From positions 1-14,624 of the forward strand of contig CANPYU010000013.1 of NCBI GenBank assembly GCA_947588665.1: a stretch of 14,624 bases of DNA, written 5' to 3'. The stretch is from an uncultured Bacilli bacterium (GTDB lineage Bacteria > Bacillota_I > Bacilli_A > RF39 > UBA660). The position numbers and the translations under genes are program-made. Below are positions 2,280-12,134 of this stretch, piece by piece. Numbering within the stretch: the first letter of the stretch is position 1; every line of letters begins with the position of its first letter. The notes under the pieces are model-generated. The model had not been told where the DNA came from. It did not search any database and saw only the letters and a program-made list of their open reading frames with translations.

Positions 2280-2372
2280 TAATTTGGATGAAAACGATAG
2301 GACTTTTTTGCTAAAAATGGATGAAAATGGCACCACTTTTTTATCAAAAATGGATGAAAACGATAGGACTTT
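2280..2372. repeat. Three imperfect 33-bp tandem repeats
   Basis: Units start at 2280, 2313 and 2346. Each has GGATGAAAA followed by a variable hexamer and then ACTTT. Units 1 and 3 share GGATGAAAACGATAGGACTT, whereas unit 2 has TGGCACC in the variable part. The third unit runs into the stop codon of gpmI (2373-2371). They fill the gap between gpmI and the ATPase promoter. Multiple short direct repeats of this size are known as transposase-binding sites in the ends of IS21-type elements, but no transposase is present, so a relic end is only a hypothesis; a protein-binding array is the other option. Confidence 0.75.
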
Positions 2373-3864
2373 AGATTATTAGACTTGGAGTATCGGCCAT
2401 TTCTTCAGGTAGGGCTATATCCATATATTCGAGAATGGTTGGGGCAACATTAGTTAAGTCGCCACTTTTTTTTAAGTTAATAGTATTATCTGTTATAATA
2501 AAGGGGACTTTACTTGTGGTATGGGTTGTAACGGGGTTGTTTGATTCATCTAGCATAATATCAGCATTGCCATGATCAGCAAGGATAAACATAGTGTAGA
2601 AATTGTCTTTAGCTACTTCATAAAGTCTTTCTAGGCAAATATCTACAGTAGTTACGGCTTTCATGGTAGCTTCAAGATTTCCTGTATGGCCAACCATATC
2701 CGGATTAGCGAAATTCATGAAGATAAAGTCAGTATCTTTTTCCATTGCGGTGATAGCTTTTTTAGTTATTTCTGTAGCGCTCATTTCTGGTTTTAAATCA
2801 TATGTTTCTACTTTAGGTGATGGTATTAATATTTTATCACATTTATCGATTTTACCATTATACATACCATCAAAGAAATATGTTACATGAGCGTATTTTT
2901 CAGTTTCGGCAATTCTACTTTGAGTTAGGCCTAAGGTACTTAAATATCTTCCTAAAGAGTTGGTTACATTTATATCTTCTAAAAAATTAATGGTATTTAT
3001 ATCTTTATCAAGAGGAAAGAAAGAATAGACTTTAGAATTACTAAAGTTATATGTAGGAAAAGCATCTATTTCAGAATTAAGGGCTTTTATTATTTGTTTT
3101 CCACGATCACTGCGATAGTTCATCCAAAGAATTAAATCACCATCTTTAATGGTATTTTCAGGATGAATAATTAGGGGATATAAAAATTCGTCAGTCATAT
3201 TTTTTTTGTATAAATTTAAAATTCCATCGGTAGCAGTTTTGGCAGATATACCAATACCTTTTGTTAATAAATCATAATATACTTTCGTCCGGTCATAATT
3301 GTTATCTCTATCCATGGCATAATACCTGCCACATAGGGATGTAATATCGACGTTTTGATCATCTTTAATTTTATTTTCTAAATCACTTATGAAATTTATA
3401 CCGGCATTTACTTTAGTGTCTCTTCCATCTGTGATGAGATGAAAATGGATTTTTTTAGCATTATGTTCTTTTAATAAGTCATACATACTTAAAAAATGTT
3501 CTAGGTTAGAATGAACTTTACCGTCACTATAAAGACCTATAATATGGACAGTTTTTTCTTGGGCTTCAGTTAAAAATTCTTTAAATTTAGTATTGTTAGT
3601 ATTTGCTTCTTTTAGAAATTCAGTAATACGAGGACCATGTTGCATTATTTTGCGACCAGCGCCAATAGTCATGTGCCCAATTTCACTGTTACCAAATTCT
3701 CCAGCATTAAGCCCAACATATTCTTCTGATGCATAAAGAGTAGTATGAGGAAAATTATTCCAAAGTCTATCAAAGTTTTTGGTATCTGCCATTTTAATAG
3801 CATTACCATATTCTTCTTCTCGATAACCAAAACCATCTAATATTACTGTTAATATTTTACGCAT
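2371..3864 (-). CDS. gpmI: 2,3-bisphosphoglycerate-independent phosphoglycerate mutase, 497 aa
   Basis: Interconverts 3- and 2-phosphoglycerate in the cytoplasm through a phosphoserine intermediate, with two Mn2+ ions. It belongs to the alkaline phosphatase superfamily. Visible signatures: the first metal ligand in VILDGFG (D10), the catalytic serine in GEFGNSEIGHMTIGAGR (S60), HLITDGRDT and GRYYAMDRD in the phosphotransferase insertion, WMNYRSDRGKQI for substrate binding, and the metal-binding NPDMVGHTG, ADHGNAD and TTHTTSKVPF near the C-terminus. Length is close to the usual 505-515. The SD AGGTGA (3874-3869) sits four bases before the ATG. It lies downstream of spo0A rather than directly after tpiA, has its own promoter, and follows a terminator. 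The stop codon lies inside the last of the 33-bp repeats. All catalytic residues I looked for are present. Confidence 0.97.
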   Translation of the reverse strand: MRKILTVILDGFGYREEEYGNAIKMADTKNFDRLWNNFPHTTLYASEEYVGLNAGEFGNSEIGHMTIGAGRKIMQHGPRITEFLKEANTNNTKFKEFLTEAQEKTVHIIGLYSDGKVHSNLEHFLSMYDLLKEHNAKKIHFHLITDGRDTKVNAGINFISDLENKIKDDQNVDITSLCGRYYAMDRDNNYDRTKVYYDLLTKGIGISAKTATDGILNLYKKNMTDEFLYPLIIHPENTIKDGDLILWMNYRSDRGKQIIKALNSEIDAFPTYNFSNSKVYSFFPLDKDINTINFLEDINVTNSLGRYLSTLGLTQSRIAETEKYAHVTYFFDGMYNGKIDKCDKILIPSPKVETYDLKPEMSATEITKKAITAMEKDTDFIFMNFANPDMVGHTGNLEATMKAVTTVDICLERLYEVAKDNFYTMFILADHGNADIMLDESNNPVTTHTTSKVPFIITDNTINLKKSGDLTNVAPTILEYMDIALPEEMADTPSLII

Positions 3865-3946: not shown

Positions 3947-4718
3947 AAATATGTAATAATTTACGATCAAAACGAAGTCTATCGGCGATAGTTGCAATAA
4001 ATTCCGAGTTAGTTGGTTTTGCTCGATCGAAAGCAACTGAATTGCCAAATATTTCTTCCATTAATTCATAGTCTCCTCGATTCCAACTAACTTCAATTGC
4101 ATGTCTAATTGCTCGTTCTACCCGAGAGGCAGTAGTGGAAAATTTTAGAGCAACTTCCGGATATATTTCTTTTGTGATTCCACTGTAAGCGTCACTATTT
4201 TTATAGAATAAGAAGACACTTTCTCTTATATAGGTATAACCTTTAATATGACTTGGAATGCCTAATTGATGCAATAATTTACTAATTGCTACATGAATTT
4301 CACGGTCTTTTTCGTTTAATTCCACAGTTTTTATTAGATCATGGTTAGTTAATTCTAAGATTCTAGTTTCTAGAGCTAACATGCTAAAAGGTTTTAGCAT
4401 ATAGTAACTAACACCATAATTATTAGTCATATTAATAGTGTACTCTTTTTTGTAACTTGTTATAATTATGACTTTTTTCTTGATGTTTTCTTCTTTCATT
4501 TTTTGTAAAATGGTTATACCATCAACTCCTGGTAAAATTAAATCCATTATGATGATATCAAAATCATTTTTACATTTAAGTATGTAATCTAAAGCATCAT
4601 TACCATTTTCGATTGTATTTACAACTTTGATTACTGCGTGACTACTAAATTGTTCTTTTATTTTAGCTGTTACATTTTCATTGTTGTCAACAACTAAAAT
4701 TCTTGCTATGTTTTCCAT
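3945..4718 (-). CDS. spo0A: Spo0A, master response regulator of sporulation, 257 aa
   Basis: DNA-binding response regulator that, once phosphorylated, starts endospore formation. Receiver domain, residues 1-120: ILVVDNNE at the acidic pocket, phosphoacceptor D59 in IIMDLILPGVDG, T87 in IIITSYKK and K109 in MLKPFS. A short linker leads to the Spo0A effector domain (about 140-257), with GIPSHIKGYTYIRE, the highly conserved recognition segment TTASRVERAIRHAIEVSW (195-212) and AKPTNSEFIATIADRLR. The SD AAGGAG (4730-4725) is six bases before the ATG. One oddity: the second acidic residue of the usual DD pair is Asn (N12), a position that normally helps bind Mg2+. The gene sits between tpiA and gpmI with its own terminator, promoter and upstream 0A-like boxes, so autoregulation is likely. 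Length matches B. subtilis Spo0A (267 aa) with a shorter linker. Confidence 0.97.
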   Translation of the reverse strand: MENIARILVVDNNENVTAKIKEQFSSHAVIKVVNTIENGNDALDYILKCKNDFDIIIMDLILPGVDGITILQKMKEENIKKKVIIITSYKKEYTINMTNNYGVSYYMLKPFSMLALETRILELTNHDLIKTVELNEKDREIHVAISKLLHQLGIPSHIKGYTYIRESVFLFYKNSDAYSGITKEIYPEVALKFSTTASRVERAIRHAIEVSWNRGDYELMEEIFGNSVAFDRAKPTNSEFIATIADRLRFDRKLLHI

Positions 4719-6831: not shown

Positions 6832-6854
6832 GTAAAAGTAGTTAATTTTTGAAT

Positions 6855-6883
6855 AAATATTTTTTGGGGTCACTTCATATTAT
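6855..6883 (+). promoter_or_regulatory. Sigma-E-like promoter of spoIID
   Basis: AAATATT (6855-6861) matches the sigma-E -35 (KMATATT) at six of seven places. After 14 bases, CATATTAT (6876-6883) matches the -10 (CATACAHT) at six of eight. Transcription would start about 13 bases before the spoIID ATG. spoIID is a sigma-E gene in B. subtilis. Confidence 0.5.
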
Positions 6884-6902
6884 TAGAGTAATAGGAGGCA
6901 CT

Positions 6903-7862
6903 ATGAATAGACTTTTTTTACTAATAATAGGTTTATTAATTCCGATAACGATTGTTACTTCACCAAAAGATGAGGAAGTAATGGCTGAAGTGACATTAGA
7001 AAATTATAATCTAGAATGGCAAATAAATGATCTTAAAGATGATGCTAAAGAAAATAAGGAATATCAAGTTTTAATTAGTAATAATAAAGATAGAAGTAAT
7101 GCTTTTTATATTGATTTAGAAGATTATATAGTTGGAGTAGTTGCTGGGGAAATGCCTGCTTCTTTTAATATGGAAGCTTTAAGGGCTCAGGCAGTTGCGG
7201 CAAGAACTTATGCAATGTATAAAATGCAAAATATAAAAGATTATGTGCTCGCTACAAGTGTTAGTGATCAGGTTTATTTAAGTAGTGAAGCTATGAAAAA
7301 TAAATGGGGTAATGATTATAATTATTATTATAATCGAGTAAAAGAAGCTGTAGATAGTACTAAGGGAGAAGTACTAACATATAATGATGAGCTTATTATT
7401 GCTTATTATTTTGCTATATCTAATGGATATACTGATGATGGTAAAACAGTTTTTAATGATGATAAAGCCTATCTTATGAGTGTTGATTCTTCTTGGGATA
7501 AAAATTATAAAGCTTATTATTCTGAGGCAGTAATGTCTAAAAATACTTTTTGTTCATGTTTAAATATTAGCTGTAATACTATTAATATTAGTAATATTGT
7601 AAGAAGTGATAGCCATTATGTGAGACAAATTACAATTAATGGTAAGACTTTTACTGGTTTACAAGTATTTAATAAATTGAGTCTTAAATCAACGGATTTT
7701 GAAATTGAAGTTAATGGTAACAATGTAAAAGTTAAAACTTATGGTTTTGGCCATAGTGTAGGTATGAGTCAATATGGAGCAGAGGGTATGGCAAGTGCTG
7801 GTTATTCTTATCAAGATATTTTAAAACATTATTATCAAAATACAGAAATAAATAAAATTTAA
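6903..7862 (+). CDS. spoIID: SpoIID, engulfment peptidoglycan hydrolase, 319 aa
   Basis: Membrane-anchored lytic transglycosylase of the mother cell. With SpoIIM and SpoIIP (not in this window) it remodels peptidoglycan so the mother cell membrane can move around the forespore. An N-terminal hydrophobic segment (about 3-19) serves as anchor. The SpoIID/LytB domain shows IDLEDYIVGVVAGEMPASF (E83 is the likely catalytic Glu), ALRAQAVAARTYAMY, a central segment with two Cys, and the C-terminal signature GHSVGMSQYGAEGMA followed by YQDILKHYYQNTEI. The start at 6903 has a perfect AGGAGG (6893-6898); an upstream in-frame ATG at 6849 would place this SD inside the gene. Length is slightly below the B. 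subtilis protein (343 aa). It is followed after 51 bases by spoIIQ, a frequent pairing in Firmicutes. Confidence 0.95.
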   Translation: MNRLFLLIIGLLIPITIVTSPKDEEVMAEVTLENYNLEWQINDLKDDAKENKEYQVLISNNKDRSNAFYIDLEDYIVGVVAGEMPASFNMEALRAQAVAARTYAMYKMQNIKDYVLATSVSDQVYLSSEAMKNKWGNDYNYYYNRVKEAVDSTKGEVLTYNDELIIAYYFAISNGYTDDGKTVFNDDKAYLMSVDSSWDKNYKAYYSEAVMSKNTFCSCLNISCNTINISNIVRSDSHYVRQITINGKTFTGLQVFNKLSLKSTDFEIEVNGNNVKVKTYGFGHSVGMSQYGAEGMASAGYSYQDILKHYYQNTEINKI

Positions 7863-7891
7863 GTATAAATTTTTTAAAGTTGCTCACTTTA
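7863..7891 (+). promoter_or_regulatory. Sigma-F-like promoter of spoIIQ
   Basis: GTATA (7863-7867), just after the spoIID stop, matches the forespore -35 (GYATA). After 14 bases, GCTCACTTTA (7882-7891) fits the -10 GGNNANAHTR at all but two of its fixed positions. A start near 7897 would leave a leader of about 17 bases containing only the SD. spoIIQ is a sigma-F gene in B. subtilis. The match is imperfect. Confidence 0.4.
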
Positions 7892-7911
7892 ATAGTAAGA
7901 AAGGTGAGTAA
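7880..7911 (+). promoter_or_regulatory. Hairpin that would hide the spoIIQ ribosome-binding site
   Basis: TTGCTCACTTT (7880-7890) can pair with AAAGGTGAGTAA (7900-7911): eight pairs with one G-U, a bulged G, then three A-U pairs. The second arm contains the SD AAGGTGA (7901-7907). An overlapping alternative hairpin, TTAAAGT/ACTTTAA (7874-7880 with 7886-7892), would free the SD. Only RNA that begins upstream of 7880 can form either. Confidence 0.4.
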
Positions 7912-7913
7912 TA

Positions 7914-8546
7914 ATGAAACAAAGAAAGCTTCGAGGATATGTTTTACCAGCTGTATATGTAATTATTTTAATGCTAGTGTTTGGGGCTGTTAGTTTAGTT
8001 AGTACTTTAATGAAGAATAATCCTAGTTATCTTTATTCAATTGGAATACTTAATAATAATACAGTGCCTGTTGTTGATGTAGATGGAGGAATCTCTAATG
8101 TTATAATTAAACCTTATAAAGGAGATAATGTAGAAGTTGCAACTAGTTTTTATGATGTTAAAGCGGACGCGAGTAGTCAGGAAAAATCACTAATATATTA
8201 TCAAAATACTTATATGAAAAATACAGGAGTTTTATATTCAAGTAATGATAAATTTGATATTGTAATGGTATTAGATGGAAAAATTTTGAATATTAAAGAT
8301 GATAATATTTTAGGTAAAGTAGTTGAGGTTCAATATAATACAGATTTAAGATTAGTTTATTATAGTTTGGATGAAATAGACGTTAAAGTGGGAGATAGTC
8401 TTTTACAGGGAGAAATAATTGGCAAAAGTGGAACTAATAGTATAAGTGATAATAAATATAATTTATTATTTGAAGTCTATTATAAAGGTACATTAATTAA
8501 TCCAGAGCAATTTTATAAAATGGATGTTAGTGATTTTAATAAATAA
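7914..8546 (+). CDS. spoIIQ: SpoIIQ-like forespore channel protein, degenerate M23 domain, 210 aa
   Basis: Forespore membrane protein whose extracytoplasmic M23/LytM domain binds SpoIIIAH across the septum, forming the channel between forespore and mother cell. A short basic N-terminus and one membrane helix (about 10-32) are followed by a LytM-like domain (about 100-200): VMVLDGKILNIKDDNILG, VYYSLDEIDVKVGDSLLQGE, IIGKSG and LLFEVYYKGTLINP. The zinc ligands of active M23 peptidases are missing: HxxxD reads NTGVL (103-107) and HLH reads NLL (183-185). It is therefore structural rather than enzymatic, as in Bacillus and unlike several clostridia that keep the ligands. The SD AAGGTGA (7901-7907) is six bases before the ATG. 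Shorter than B. subtilis SpoIIQ (283 aa). It follows spoIID; the spoIIID usually found next is absent. Confidence 0.88.
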   Translation: MKQRKLRGYVLPAVYVIILMLVFGAVSLVSTLMKNNPSYLYSIGILNNNTVPVVDVDGGISNVIIKPYKGDNVEVATSFYDVKADASSQEKSLIYYQNTYMKNTGVLYSSNDKFDIVMVLDGKILNIKDDNILGKVVEVQYNTDLRLVYYSLDEIDVKVGDSLLQGEIIGKSGTNSISDNKYNLLFEVYYKGTLINPEQFYKMDVSDFNK

Positions 8547-8575
8547 CCTCTTATATTTTTAAGGGGTTTATTATT
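8545..8575 (+). terminator. Intrinsic terminator of spoIID-spoIIQ
   Basis: AACCTCTTA (8545-8553) pairs with TAAGGGGTT (8560-8568) with one G-U pair and a six-base loop, followed by the U-rich TATTATT. The stem starts in the spoIIQ stop codon. Confidence 0.65.
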
Positions 8576-8606
8576 ATGTTTAATTTAGAAAGAAGATTAT
8601 GATAAG

Positions 8607-9152
8607 ATGATAATTTATATTGTGGATAATAAAATTAATATAATATATAAAAATAAAATTATTAGTAAAGAGTTTGAAAGTGTACAAGATGGATATATTA
8701 TTCATAAAGATAAATTTATGAGTGAATTTTTAAATATTCAAAAAAAAGAAAAAATTAGAAGCAAATTATTGGGGGATAAAATAGATATTATTAAAGAATC
8801 TTTTTATACTGTAAGTGATATAACTTTTATAGAGAGTATATTCTTTGATTTAGGGTTTGTAAAAGTTAATTTTCGGGATATTAAAGATTTTTTTGATAGA
8901 GAAGCTACTTATATAGAAGTTAATAAAAATTATTTAGTTATTAATTTAGATAAAGGTTTATATTTGGATCTTAATTATTATAAGGATATACCAAAAATTA
9001 TAGAATATTTTAAAGAATTTATGTTTCGAGATATTATTTTTTTTGGGACAAATAAAATTATAGCTAATATTAGAATTAAAGGGTTTAATGTGTATTTTAT
9101 GGATGATAGTGTAACTTATATTACAGATTGTTTACTTAAAGTAAAAAAATAG
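8607..9152 (+). CDS. Unknown protein, possibly a shortened, degenerate MreB/Mbl actin, 181 aa
   Basis: No family is certain. By eye the order of motifs parallels MreB: an N-terminal beta pair (IYIVDNKINIIYKNKII, where MreB has DLGTANT), VQDGYIIHKDKFMSEFLN (MreB: MKDGVI...MLKYF), KIDIIKESFYTVSDITFIES with IFFDLGFVKVNF (MreB: VPSGITEVEKRA...AGAKEVYLI), and at the end IIFFGTNKIIANI...GFNVYFMDDSVTYIT (MreB: GGGALLRGL...GIPVYVADDPLTAVA). Glycines of the phosphate loops are missing and it is about half the usual 335 residues, so ATP binding is unlikely. Position supports the idea: in Bacillus, spoIIID and mbl follow the spoIID-spoIIQ region. Codon use matches its neighbours and the frame is intact, which argues against a decaying pseudogene. 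The start has only a weak purine-rich SD (AGAAAGAAGA, 8588-8597). Alternatives are an unrelated FtsA/PilM-like fold or a lineage-specific protein. Confidence 0.45.
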   Translation: MIIYIVDNKINIIYKNKIISKEFESVQDGYIIHKDKFMSEFLNIQKKEKIRSKLLGDKIDIIKESFYTVSDITFIESIFFDLGFVKVNFRDIKDFFDREATYIEVNKNYLVINLDKGLYLDLNYYKDIPKIIEYFKEFMFRDIIFFGTNKIIANIRIKGFNVYFMDDSVTYITDCLLKVKK

Positions 9153-9174: not shown

Positions 9175-9203
9175 TTGACTTTATCACGAGTTTATATTAT
9201 AAT
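9175..9203 (+). promoter_or_regulatory. Sigma-A promoter of agrA-agrC
   Basis: TTGACT (9175-9180) and TATAAT (9198-9203) are exactly 17 bases apart, a near-consensus promoter that should not need an activator. Transcription would start near 9210. Confidence 0.75.
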
Positions 9204-9236: not shown

Positions 9237-9941
9237 ATGATAAAGTTTATTTTAGTAGACGATGATAAAAATGAGTTAGAGCATATTAAAAGCTTACTAA
9301 ATGAAATTACAGATGATGATAAGGAGATTTGTTGCTTTTTAAAGGTTACTCCAGAATTAAAACAAGAAATACAAAATACAGATAATAGAAAAGTGTATGT
9401 ATTGGATATTGAGCTTGGTAATAGTAAAGTTAGTGGAATTAATATTGCAAAATTAATTAGAGCAGTTGATTGGGAAAGTGAAATTATTTTTATTACTAAT
9501 CATGATAAAATGTTTGAGTCTGTACATAGAAGTGTGTATGAAGTTTTTGATTTTATTGAAAAGTTTCATGATTTTGATAAAAGATTTAAAAAGGATGTAA
9601 AAGAAATATTAAATAGAAAGTTTGATAATAAGATGTTTGTTTATAAAGCAAATAATATAGATTTAACTTTGCATTATAAATATATTCTTTATATTTATAG
9701 AGAAAAAGAAGAAAGAAAACTAGTGATTGTAACAGATAATAATAAGTATAAAGTTAATATGTCGATTAAAGAGATAATACCTTTATTAGATGCAAGATTT
9801 AAGCAATGTCATAGGTCTTGTATTGTTAATACCGAAAGAGTTGAGGAGTTTAATTATAAAGATGGTTATTTTGTTTTAGATACTGGTGAAAAAGTTTTTA
9901 TGCTTTCAAAGAAGCATAGAAGTGAGGTTTTAAATGTTTGA
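9237..9941 (+). CDS. agrA: AgrA-type response regulator with LytTR DNA-binding domain, 234 aa
   Basis: Cytoplasmic response regulator of a peptide quorum-sensing system. Receiver domain (1-125): acidic FILVDDDKNE (D8, D9), phosphoacceptor D57 in VYVLDIELGN, IIFITNHD and the conserved Lys in FDFIEKFHDF. The LytTR domain (about 135-230) shows MFVYKANN, ILYIYREKEERKLVIVT, FKQCHRSCIVNTERVEEF and MLSKKHRSEV, the pattern of AgrA, ComE and PlnC. Such proteins bind pairs of 9-bp direct repeats about 21 bp apart; a matching pair lies upstream of agrB. The SD is GGAG (9224-9227). It overlaps agrC by eight bases, so the two are cotranscribed. Here the regulator precedes the kinase, the reverse of staphylococcal agrBDCA. 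The symbol is used in the sense of type, not strict orthology. Confidence 0.88.
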   Translation: MIKFILVDDDKNELEHIKSLLNEITDDDKEICCFLKVTPELKQEIQNTDNRKVYVLDIELGNSKVSGINIAKLIRAVDWESEIIFITNHDKMFESVHRSVYEVFDFIEKFHDFDKRFKKDVKEILNRKFDNKMFVYKANNIDLTLHYKYILYIYREKEERKLVIVTDNNKYKVNMSIKEIIPLLDARFKQCHRSCIVNTERVEEFNYKDGYFVLDTGEKVFMLSKKHRSEVLNV

Positions 9942-11208
9942 GTTTTTAGTGTGGTTTTTGGCTAGTATCGTTTCTATCTTTGGAGTATCTTATTTTTATT
10001 TTAAAGTAACAGGAGCAAAAAGTAAAATAAATAAAAAGATAATTTTAATTCTTTTGGTTGGAGCTTTATTTTATGCTTTAATAAAATATTATAATATATC
10101 TTATATAACTGTTATTTCATATTATTTTATAACACCGTTTTTATTTTATGCAATTAAACCATTGCCATTGAAAAAATTTATTTTATATTCGATTATAATT
10201 TGGCTTTATGGTATGATATTAGATTTGCTTTCAATGATAATTGTTGTAATAGTAACTACGCTTTTTGATTTTGATATTGCTAATCATTTTAATTTTGCTA
10301 CGATTCTTTTATCTATGTTTGTTTTTATAATGTTTGTATTTTTGGCTAATATTAAAAAAGTAAAACTTTTTACAGAGTATTTATATAAATCTTTTTTAAA
10401 ATTGAAATTTTCTAATTTTTCATTAGTTATATTGTCAGTTTTTATATTTTTTGTAGGAATGTTAATATTTATTAATATGAATCATTTACAAGTTGATTTA
10501 CTATTATTTTTGGTAATTATTTTAATGATTTTGATTTTTTTACTGTTGATATTATATAAAATGAATAATGATGAAATGAAAAAATATTTGAAAACTTTAA
10601 AAGAAAATAATGAATTTTATATTAAACTTGATGATGAAAATAGAACATTTAGACATAATTTAAATGCTAAACTTTTAAGTATAAAATCGGTATCTAATAA
10701 GAAAGCAATGGCTTTAATTGATGATTTGATTGGACAGTTTGAAAAGACTAAAAAGTTTACAAAAGGAATTAAAATTATTCCTTATGGACTAAATGGAATT
10801 ATTTATCAAAAGTTACATAATTATATGGATAAGTTAAATATTGATATTCAAAATAGAATTGATTATGATATTTTTGAATATTTAACTCCAAGAAGATATA
10901 ATGTTTTTGTTGAGAAAATGGTAGTAGCTTTAGATAATGCGATTGAGTCAGCTTTAAAAAGTGATAAAAAAATTATAAGTATAGATTTATATGATGAAGA
11001 TGGGAAAATTTTTATAGAAGTAAAAAATAGTTTTAATGAAAGTATTAATGTTGATGAGTTAGGTACTAAAAATTATTCAACTAAAGGTAAAAGACGTGGA
11101 ATAGGTTTATTTTCAATCATTAGAAGTAATGAAGCTAAAGTATCTTTTGAAATTGTTAATGATTTATTTATAACGAAGGTAATAACTAGAAAGAAAATAA
11201 CAGAATAA
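9934..11208 (+). CDS. agrC: AgrC-type membrane histidine kinase (HPK10), 424 aa
   Basis: Sensor kinase for the cyclic peptide made by AgrB and AgrD. The N-terminal half holds six or seven hydrophobic helices (about 2-23, 36-53, 57-74, 82-110, 120-138, 160-181, 188-210), the typical AgrC peptide-sensing module. The cytoplasmic part begins with a coiled region and the atypical H-box FRHNLNAKLLSI, with the phosphorylated His at 241. An N-box ALDNAIESAL (N335) and a G-box KRRGIGLFSI (G389, G391) of the ATPase domain follow. The combination of many helices, an RxFRHN H-box and a short ATPase domain is characteristic of HPK10 kinases paired with LytTR regulators. Its ATG overlaps the agrA stop by eight bases. 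It ends at a terminator shared with the convergent agrB-agrD operon. Confidence 0.9.
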   Translation: MFEFLVWFLASIVSIFGVSYFYFKVTGAKSKINKKIILILLVGALFYALIKYYNISYITVISYYFITPFLFYAIKPLPLKKFILYSIIIWLYGMILDLLSMIIVVIVTTLFDFDIANHFNFATILLSMFVFIMFVFLANIKKVKLFTEYLYKSFLKLKFSNFSLVILSVFIFFVGMLIFINMNHLQVDLLLFLVIILMILIFLLLILYKMNNDEMKKYLKTLKENNEFYIKLDDENRTFRHNLNAKLLSIKSVSNKKAMALIDDLIGQFEKTKKFTKGIKIIPYGLNGIIYQKLHNYMDKLNIDIQNRIDYDIFEYLTPRRYNVFVEKMVVALDNAIESALKSDKKIISIDLYDEDGKIFIEVKNSFNESINVDELGTKNYSTKGKRRGIGLFSIIRSNEAKVSFEIVNDLFITKVITRKKITE

Positions 11209-11239
11209 AAAAACTCCGGATAATCCGGGGCTTTTATTT
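11207..11239. terminator. Bidirectional terminator between agrC and agrD
   Basis: CTCCGGA-TAA-TCCGGGG (11214-11230) is a seven-pair hairpin with one G-U, rich in G-C. CTTTTATTT follows on the plus strand (11231-11239) and seven T follow on the minus strand (11213-11207). It can stop both convergent operons. A 22-bp near-palindrome (11244-11265) over the agrD stop may add stability to that mRNA's end. Confidence 0.85.
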
Positions 11240-11251
11240 GCTAAAGAATAA

Positions 11252-11359
11252 TTATAATAATTCTTCAGGACAAGTTGGTTCATCAAAAATGAATAAAATT
11301 GTAAATGCAGAAGTTGTAGCTTCAGCAGCACCACTTAGTATGTTTGCTAAAAATCCCAT
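11252..11359 (-). CDS. agrD: AgrD, signal peptide precursor, 35 aa
   Basis: Precursor of a cyclic autoinducing peptide. It has the three parts of AgrD proteins: a short amphipathic leader (MGFLANILSGAAEATT), a hydrophobic signal segment (SAFTILFIF, residues 17-25) and the acidic Pro-containing tail DEPTCPEELL (26-35), which matches the recognition tail DE-x-x-x-P-x-EL of known AgrD proteins. AgrB cuts between the signal segment and the tail and joins the new C-terminus to a side chain in the segment. The usual Cys or Ser five residues before the cut is Ile here. Candidate ring residues are S17 (nine-residue ring, as in enterococcal GBAP) or T20 (six-residue ring). The SD AAAGGAGGT (11374-11366) is perfect, and agrB ends 49 bases upstream. 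The only Cys (C30) lies in the tail. Confidence 0.88.
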   Translation of the reverse strand: MGFLANILSGAAEATTSAFTILFIFDEPTCPEELL

Positions 11360-11408: not shown

Positions 11409-12020
11409 TTAAACCACATTTGATTTTTTCTTATAATATTTATAATTATTAAACTGGGTCTTAGTTATTTTGTAAGTAATGGGGTTTATTAATATGCTTT
11501 GTATTAGTAAGGCATATAATAAAGCATTATTGATAGTAGTATTTTTATTTATGATGAATATTAGAAAATAAATTAGAACTACTATTATACTTACAATTTT
11601 GCACATTCTTCTTCTTTTTGGTTTTATTAAAGGCTTCTTTGGTGTATCGGCTGGTGCCCATAAAATCATAGATATTAAAGAAATTCCTAAGATGATATAA
11701 CCAATGTAGTTCGGAATAATAAAATTTTTAGTAAAATAAGGAATTACATTATAAATAAAAATTGTCATTATCCAACAGCTGATATTTGATTTAGCATGCA
11801 TTCCATAACTGCAGGTTCTGATACCTCCATAAAATAATAAGAATAGTAATATTTCATAGATAGTGTTTGTAATAATACTTATTATTATAACTACTGTTAG
11901 TTTAACAATTAAACTATATATTCCTGCTAATCCATAGCGTAATTTTAAAAGTTTTAAATCATCACATTCTTGATATTTACTAATAAAATTAATACTTGAA
12001 TTTATAAATTTTTCTTTCAT
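11409..12020 (-). CDS. agrB: AgrB, membrane peptidase that processes AgrD, 203 aa
   Basis: Integral membrane cysteine endopeptidase that removes the C-terminal tail of AgrD and forms the cyclic signal peptide. The catalytic segment GGIRTCSYGMHAKSNISC carries H75 and C82, equivalent to H77 and C84 of S. aureus AgrB. The family motif APADTPKKPL follows between later helices, with the basic loop KPKRRR after it. Four or more hydrophobic helices (about 38-52, 56-68, 82-95, 103-120, 141-158) flank it. Length is typical (about 190-210). The SD is AAAGGA (12034-12029), eight bases before the ATG. It is the first gene of the agrB-agrD operon, opposite in direction to agrA-agrC, with its own promoter preceded by 21-bp-spaced direct repeats. 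The membrane topology is estimated by eye. Confidence 0.93.
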   Translation of the reverse strand: MKEKFINSSINFISKYQECDDLKLLKLRYGLAGIYSLIVKLTVVIIISIITNTIYEILLFLLFYGGIRTCSYGMHAKSNISCWIMTIFIYNVIPYFTKNFIIPNYIGYIILGISLISMILWAPADTPKKPLIKPKRRRMCKIVSIIVVLIYFLIFIINKNTTINNALLYALLIQSILINPITYKITKTQFNNYKYYKKKSNVV

Positions 12021-12040: not shown

Positions 12041-12059
12041 AAATAAGTATAACTTATTT
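12041..12059. repeat. 19-bp perfect inverted repeat over the agrB -10
   Basis: AAATAAGT-ATA-ACTTATTT has perfect eight-base arms with a three-base centre. It covers the -10 of the agrB promoter (12051-12046). It may be an operator for a repressor; it could also be a chance A/T-rich palindrome. Confidence 0.5.
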
Positions 12060-12074: not shown

Positions 12075-12081
12075 TTCCGTT

Positions 12082-12110
12082 TGCTTTAAGTAAATTATAT
12101 TGTGCTTTAA
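12082..12110 (-). promoter_or_regulatory. Pair of direct repeats, candidate AgrA (LytTR) binding site
   Basis: TTAAAGCA occurs on the minus strand at 12110-12103 and 12089-12082, exactly 21 bp apart. The nearer copy ends seven bases before the -35 of agrB. Spacing and placement are those of AgrA, ComE and PlnC sites; the sequence itself differs from the staphylococcal one, as expected for a distant regulator. Confidence 0.55.
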
Positions 12111-12134
12111 AATTCTTAAATGTTTTGGTATAAA
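12106..12134 (+). promoter_or_regulatory. Candidate promoter of the cold-shock gene
   Basis: TTTAAA (12106-12111), 17 bases, then TATAAA (12129-12134) preceded by an extended TGG. A start near 12141 would give a 190-base leader. The -35 overlaps the distal LytTR-like repeat, so AgrA binding might affect this gene too. Confidence 0.4.

Follow-up and report, generated by a model that had tools for sequence, protein, structure and literature searches.

A predicted agr-type signal closed by threonine in an uncultured Bacilli bacterium and its relatives

The stretch of DNA analyzed here, 14,624 nucleotides from an uncultured Bacilli bacterium and referred to below as the window, appears to carry a complete agr-type quorum-sensing locus, and the comparative data argue with considerable confidence that its signal is a six-residue lactone closed by Thr20 (T20) of the AgrD precursor, most likely released by a cut between F25 and D26. 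The gene family is ordinary and the chemistry is unusual: comparison with relatives strongly indicates a Thr-closed six-residue AIP. Five features were read from the sequence, namely, the genes, the invariant catalytic pair of AgrB, the limitation of one AgrD position to Thr, Cys, or Ser, the register of the AgrD tail, and a conserved promoter element. In the proposed mechanism, AgrB (Cys82/His75) would cut between F25 and D26 and form an acyl-enzyme with F25, and the T20 hydroxyl would attack this acyl-enzyme to give the ring [T20-I-L-F-I-F25], that is, [TILFIF], which would bear a short N-terminal tail. The signal would be exported and, once free, sensed by AgrC, and AgrA would then activate agrB by binding a conserved box upstream of the agrB −10, so that the system would be autoinducing.

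The agrB gene (positions 11409 to 12020, minus strand) encodes a 203-amino-acid membrane cysteine peptidase/cyclase (PF04647, 3e-34) that has both the domain and the His/Cys pair by which AgrB is recognized. His75 and Cys82 were invariant in 133 of 133 aligned AgrB proteins and are seven residues apart, like H77 and C84 of Staphylococcus aureus AgrB. A search of the PDB returned no AgrB sequence match at E values up to 1, and no relative of AgrB was found in viral contigs. Behind agrB on the same strand, after a gap of 49 bases, lies agrD (11359 to 11252, minus strand, stop codon included), with the SD sequence AAAGGAGG 7 bases 5' of its ATG. Its product is the 35-residue signal precursor MGFLANILSGAAEATTSAFTILFIFDEPTCPEELL.

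The window AgrD scored below the cutoffs of two family models, PF05931 (E value of 0.055; 14 bits against a cutoff of 22.7) and TIGR04223 (17.5 bits against a cutoff of 19). Its nearest relative, the AgrD of locus L001, is identical at 30 of 35 residues and exceeded the TIGR04223 cutoff at 25.2 bits. AgrD was directly behind agrB in 48 of 49 AgrB-related loci from named genome contigs, the one exception being L006, whose contig ends 80 bases after agrB. Because the L001 protein passes the cutoff and the gene is kept in this place, the window agrD is, on comparative grounds, a real gene; a pseudogene or a sequencing slip was rejected on the basis of the same retention. The sequence-only reading had described a 35-residue AgrD with a good SD behind agrB, no Cys or Ser five residues before the tail, and its only Cys within the tail. 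The position of the ORF, the AgrB match, and the relatives agree with the first point, and Ile21 at the fifth place and C30 in the tail DEPTCPEELL (D26 to L35) confirm the other two.

To compare ring residues, each AgrD was anchored on its tail and positions were counted backwards from the tail start. By this count, Ile21 (codon ATT, 11297 to 11299, minus strand) is at −5 and T20, the proposed ring closer (codon ACA, 11300 to 11302, minus strand), is at −6, so that the window AgrD lacks the Cys or Ser closing a five-residue ring that is typical of the family. The placement of the cut is predicted by alignment and draws on S. aureus AgrD, in which, according to the accessible text of PMC10482373, E34 and L41 are required for processing by AgrB and Cys28 closes a five-residue ring. 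Since Cys28 closes a ring of that size, E34 and L41 are the second and ninth residues past the cut. All 132 aligned AgrD proteins of the present collection have Glu as the second tail residue, and at the ninth place Leu, Met, Ile, or Phe accounted for all 131; the window tail likewise has Glu and Leu at the two places needed in S. aureus. This register favors the cut before D26 that had been assumed at the outset, which is the best reading and would make the T20 ring six residues long. A six-residue ring, [CVLVTL], is listed for Clostridium acetobutylicum in the available part of PMC12312760.

A five-residue ring from T20 to I24, with the cut before F25 and F25 left on the tail, was also considered. 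In its favor, a nucleophile is found five residues before the tail in 19 AgrD proteins from other genomes of the phylum. However, the tail register (Glu second, Leu type ninth) places F25 before the cut, and position −1 varies like the ring, requiring 55 changes on the AgrB tree described below versus 9, 0, and 10 for the first three tail columns. Six-residue rings are also known, and we regard the five-residue ring as improbable. The 19 proteins (Cys in 10, Ser in 7, and Thr in 2 at −5) were those readable with a simple tail pattern among 35 AgrD hits (18 plus 17) in genomes placed outside the order of the L001 genome by their absence from the order sample; the remaining 16 hits, which misfit the pattern or were chance matches, were left uncounted.

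The two Thr proteins among the 19 belong to a different family. That of L166 has VTWGGL before YQP, and that of L207 has VTWFGE before YEP. L166 has an AgrB (PF04647, 3.7e-13), and L207 has a 178-residue ORF in which the same His/Cys spacing as in AgrB was seen by eye. Thr signals apparently had a separate origin here.

Position −6 was assessed in several sets of relatives. The first set comprised the window and 48 loci, all found through AgrB and none through an AgrD profile. Of these 49, 38 have Thr at −6 and 11 have Cys, while −5 took nine residue types (I, F, V, A, L, Y, W, S, and C). Among the 120 matches listed of 463 to an AgrD profile, −6 was Thr in 107, Cys in 11, and Ser in 2, in a set that overlaps the fetched loci and is biased because it was retrieved with that profile. 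In the order of the L001 genome, an AgrD match was present in 217 and an AgrB match in 238 of 385 sampled genomes, and 110 loci (30 plus 80) were fetched from it through AgrD. Pooled with the first set and with 4 loci of a separate batch of 26, these gave 166 AgrD copies, with some genomes present twice, corresponding to 138 distinct core-plus-tail sequences. After correction of the anchor of L116, position −6 in the 138 was Cys in 86, Thr in 48, and Ser in 3; the remaining sequence, L156, has Cys at −7. Three contigs (L071, L130, and L141) held two AgrD matches each, possibly second signals.

Because a profile of Thr- and Cys-type AgrD might miss other AgrD types, 60 further loci were fetched by the position of agrB, of which 53 had enough DNA past the gene. 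AgrB was matched without AgrD in 22 genomes. Loci were fetched for the 12 of them whose AgrB position was listed, but in 7 cases the contig stops no more than 115 bases from agrB, which left 5 informative loci. The other 48 of the 53 were previously unfetched loci from genomes with an AgrD match. AgrD was present in all 53, including three (L223, L227, and L267) that the tail pattern script missed and that were read by eye. Position −6 was Cys in 44, Ser in 4, and Thr in 2, and the remaining three (L216, L217, and L233) have Cys at −7; L216 and L217 are two of the five informative loci that the AgrD profile had missed. Every AgrD of the 53 thus carries one of Cys, Ser, and Thr at −6 or −7. Since L156, L216, L217, and L233 all carry Cys at −7, the distance from nucleophile to tail is not absolute in this order.

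A ring-closing nucleophile would be expected to leave this pattern, a column restricted to Thr, Cys, and Ser amid hypervariable positions. The absence of Cys or Ser at −5 is, judged from the relatives, not peculiar to this genome; the sampled order places its ring residue at −6. The earlier proposal that a hydroxyl residue closes the ring, either S17 or T20, is likely to hold, and the relatives pick T20, whose column is limited to these three residues, save for the few Cys at −7, between hypervariable neighbors. Thr at −6 could instead be retained for its shape. Ser, its nearest chemical match, is scarce, being rarer than Thr among the distinct AgrD proteins (3 of 138) and present in 4 of 53 in the second AgrB-anchored set. 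In the AgrD proteins of L032 and L043, Thr at −6 is followed by Cys at −5, and either residue could be the closer; if it is Cys, the ring would have five residues and Thr would be idle.

A related reading is that the signal is linear or cyclized otherwise, for example through the tail Cys30, with Thr at −6 retained for fit in AgrB. C30 does occur in nearly all of the distinct Thr-type AgrD proteins (47 of 48). However, a tail Cys also occurs in 45 of 86 Cys-type proteins and is absent from one Thr-type protein (L144), and the restriction of one column of the hypervariable stretch to Thr, Cys, and Ser is the prediction for a nucleophile. We consider this reading very doubtful. As a ring partner, Cys30 was rejected, since it has no exclusive association with the ring residue.

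The S17 alternative, a nine-residue lactone (SAFTILFIF) like enterococcal GBAP, for which the accessible text of PMC12312760 gives a nine-residue ring as precedent, fared worse in the alignment. Ser or Thr does occupy −9 in most AgrD proteins (117 of 138 distinct sequences, counted before one anchor correction). In the first set, the residues at −9 were Ser in 23, Thr in 12, Asp in 11, Gln in 2, and Pro in 1 of 49. Sixteen of the 48 distinct Thr-type AgrD proteins have Asp, Gln, or Pro there, and a Ser nine residues before the cut is therefore not conserved as a closer; among the 120 proteins listed of 463 matched, the residue is Asp, Gln, or Glu in 42. Ser or Thr is also found there in 83 of 86 proteins with Cys at −6, and the column requires 23 changes on the AgrB tree versus 9 at −6. 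Its conservation would fit a leader-cleavage or recognition site better, and because Asp, Gln, or Pro stands in the S17 column of a third of the Thr-type proteins, a GBAP-like ring is extremely unlikely. The calculated [M+H]+ values of the candidate lactones are 735.4440 for TILFIF, 882.5124 for FTILFIF, 953.5495 for AFTILFIF, and 1040.5815 for SAFTILFIF; a ring through S17 would be equal in mass to SAF-[TILFIF].

The recurrent Ser or Thr at −9 also bears on a further variant, in which the T20 lactone forms first, the leader is removed immediately in front of T20, and an O-to-N acyl shift then yields a head-to-tail cyclized (homodetic) hexapeptide. The available part of PMC11297923 describes an S-to-N shift of exotail-free AIPs, an O-to-N shift of a synthetic lactone, and homodetic, exotail-free signals of Listeria and Ruminiclostridium. 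However, the residues at −9 hint at a leader cut further upstream than T20, and we judge the homodetic form to be rather unlikely as the product here.

The history of the T20 column was followed on a quick maximum likelihood tree of 133 different AgrB proteins, in which 34 of 130 inner branches were well supported and 43 were open; identical AgrB proteins and loci L071, L110, and L122, with no AgrB in reach, were omitted. Thr requires at least eight state changes on this tree, at least four of them forced by well-supported branches. One well-supported set of 66 rows contains 47 of the 48 Thr rows, 17 Cys rows, and 2 Ser rows; the remaining Thr row, L147, has a very long branch. Over 132 rows (L156, with Cys at −7, omitted), position −6 requires nine changes, none of which leads outside Thr, Cys, and Ser, compared with 55 to 84 changes for columns −5 to −1 and none for the second tail column. 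From its spread across the rest of the tree, we infer that Cys is the older state at −6, although change counts cannot separate gain from loss. The best reading of the comparison is that the window signal would be the Thr version of a Cys-closed signal.

Two AgrB positions were considered in connection with the Thr state. All 48 Thr rows have Gly, Ala, Ser, or Thr at position 69 and a small residue at position 65; so do 24 and 19, respectively, of the 82 Cys rows. These positions were picked after all columns had been viewed and have only two independent pairs on supported branches, and as a marker for Thr signals they are a lead, no more.

The remainder of the locus is that of a two-component agr system. 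agrA (9237 to 9941, plus strand) encodes a response regulator (LytTR, PF04397, 4.5e-14; PF00072, 3.2e-8), and agrC (9934 to 11208, plus strand), convergent with agrBD, encodes a sensor with a GHKL ATPase domain (PF14501, 3.9e-11). Of the 48 related loci with AgrD, 45 have a convergent agrC following it; the contigs of the other three (L012, L029, and L031) end first. Between agrC and agrD, a hairpin (11214 to 11230; CTCCGG/CCGGGG), with a run of A before it and a run of T after it, reads as a probable terminator for both strands.

Upstream of agrB, we propose an AgrA box with a first half, TTTTAAAGC (12104 to 12112, minus strand), and a second half, TTACTTAAAGCAAAC (12079 to 12093, minus strand), to which AgrA would bind. 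A −10 hexamer, TATACT (12046 to 12051, minus strand), was read from the sequences; no −35 hexamer was seen at the usual distance in this promoter. With up to three mismatches, TTACTTWAAGCAAAC was found upstream of agrB in 24 of 25 close loci, at a near-constant distance to TATACT and preceded by TTTTAAAAC; L007 has five mismatches. The 25 loci are the window and 24 of L001 to L027, with L006, L015, and L027 unused. Of 5,000 mononucleotide shuffles, 129 reached three mismatches or fewer, a comparison that is partly circular because the pattern was derived from the same sequences. agrA is preceded by a sigma-70-like promoter (TTGACT-17-TATAAT; 9175 to 9203, plus strand), similar in most relatives compared, and this arrangement would suggest constitutive agrAC and AgrA-driven agrBD. 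A strict box-plus-10 pattern occurred in 7 of 19 genomes, five times before agrB and twice in the end of the ORF upstream of agrA, and revealed no other AgrA target in the 19. A sequence before agrA that resembles the agrB box was rejected as a further box, since it falls within the 3' end of the ORF preceding agrA and probably reflects coding conservation.

Directly before agrA (6849 to 9152, plus strand) are genes for SpoIID (PF08486), an M23 peptidase that is perhaps SpoIIQ-like, and a 181-residue protein. The last ORF (8607 to 9152, plus strand) matches no Pfam or NCBIfam model; 22 of the 48 related loci have a relative of it in front of agrA, and all 22 are among the nearest 27. Spo0A is encoded at 4718 to 3945 (minus strand). 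The agr locus may be part of sporulation control. Elsewhere in the window, a short intergenic frame (2284 to 2382, plus strand) consists of repeated MDEN(D/G) units with TFL, a small DNA repeat.

With staphylococcal agr, this locus shares a His/Cys AgrB, an AgrD with leader, core, and charged tail, an AgrC kinase, and a LytTR AgrA. Staphylococci encode agrBDCA as one operon, whereas agrBD and agrAC are convergent here, and their five-residue rings are closed by Cys or Ser, in contrast to Thr at −6 and the proposed six-residue ring. Staphylococcal AIPs are thiolactones, except for the Ser lactone of S. intermedius/pseudintermedius, which shows that AgrB-type enzymes can make esters. The C. acetobutylicum system also has a six-residue ring and agrBD apart from agrCA (PMC12312760, available part), but its ring is closed by Cys. 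GBAP (FsrB/FsrD) is a lactone in an agr-like system, as is predicted here, but with Ser and a nine-residue ring. The agr2 signal of Clostridioides difficile, listed as NSA[SSWVA] in the same part of PMC12312760, also has a hydroxyl ring residue, but it is Ser in a five-residue ring.

In the AIP table of PMC12312760, as far as it was available, every ring starts with Cys or Ser, and the accessible text of PMC4916163 names Cys as the agr ring residue, replaced in some cases by Ser. Across the reviews consulted, agr signals are closed by Cys and only rarely by Ser. Ring closure other than by Cys or Ser was not found in the accessible portions of PMC4979651, PMC10885120, PMC5295018, PMC13220807, and PMC7301438. 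Neither a Thr-closed agr signal nor a precedent for Thr lactone formation in an AgrB system was found in the open-access literature; for the former, this is weak evidence, as most subscription papers lie outside it. As excerpted, PMC10482373 reports that S. aureus AgrB1 and AgrB2 were unable to process Ser-containing AgrD, and a secondary alcohol would thus be a demanding nucleophile.

We think it likely that Thr-closed lactones represent a third chemical class of AgrB-made signal. An uncultured gut order would have repeatedly swapped Cys, Ser, and Thr as the nucleophile of a six-residue ring while keeping its place fixed, a second family in the phylum (L166 and L207) would have done likewise in a five-residue ring, and AgrB would have evolved to catalyze attack by a secondary alcohol, perhaps aided by small residues at 65 and 69. 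Thr in place of Cys or Ser recurs among the uncultured relatives of this gut bacterium. The order offers a natural series for how AgrB selects its nucleophile; for example, L010 and L017 have Cys-type AgrB proteins that share 63% and 60% identity, respectively, with the Thr-type AgrB of the window. Because a Thr lactone has no thioester, methods based on thiolactone trapping would miss it. Concrete signal structures can now be predicted for bacteria known here from metagenome assemblies only, and a Thr lactone, if true, would widen the chemistry of an important family of signaling enzymes.
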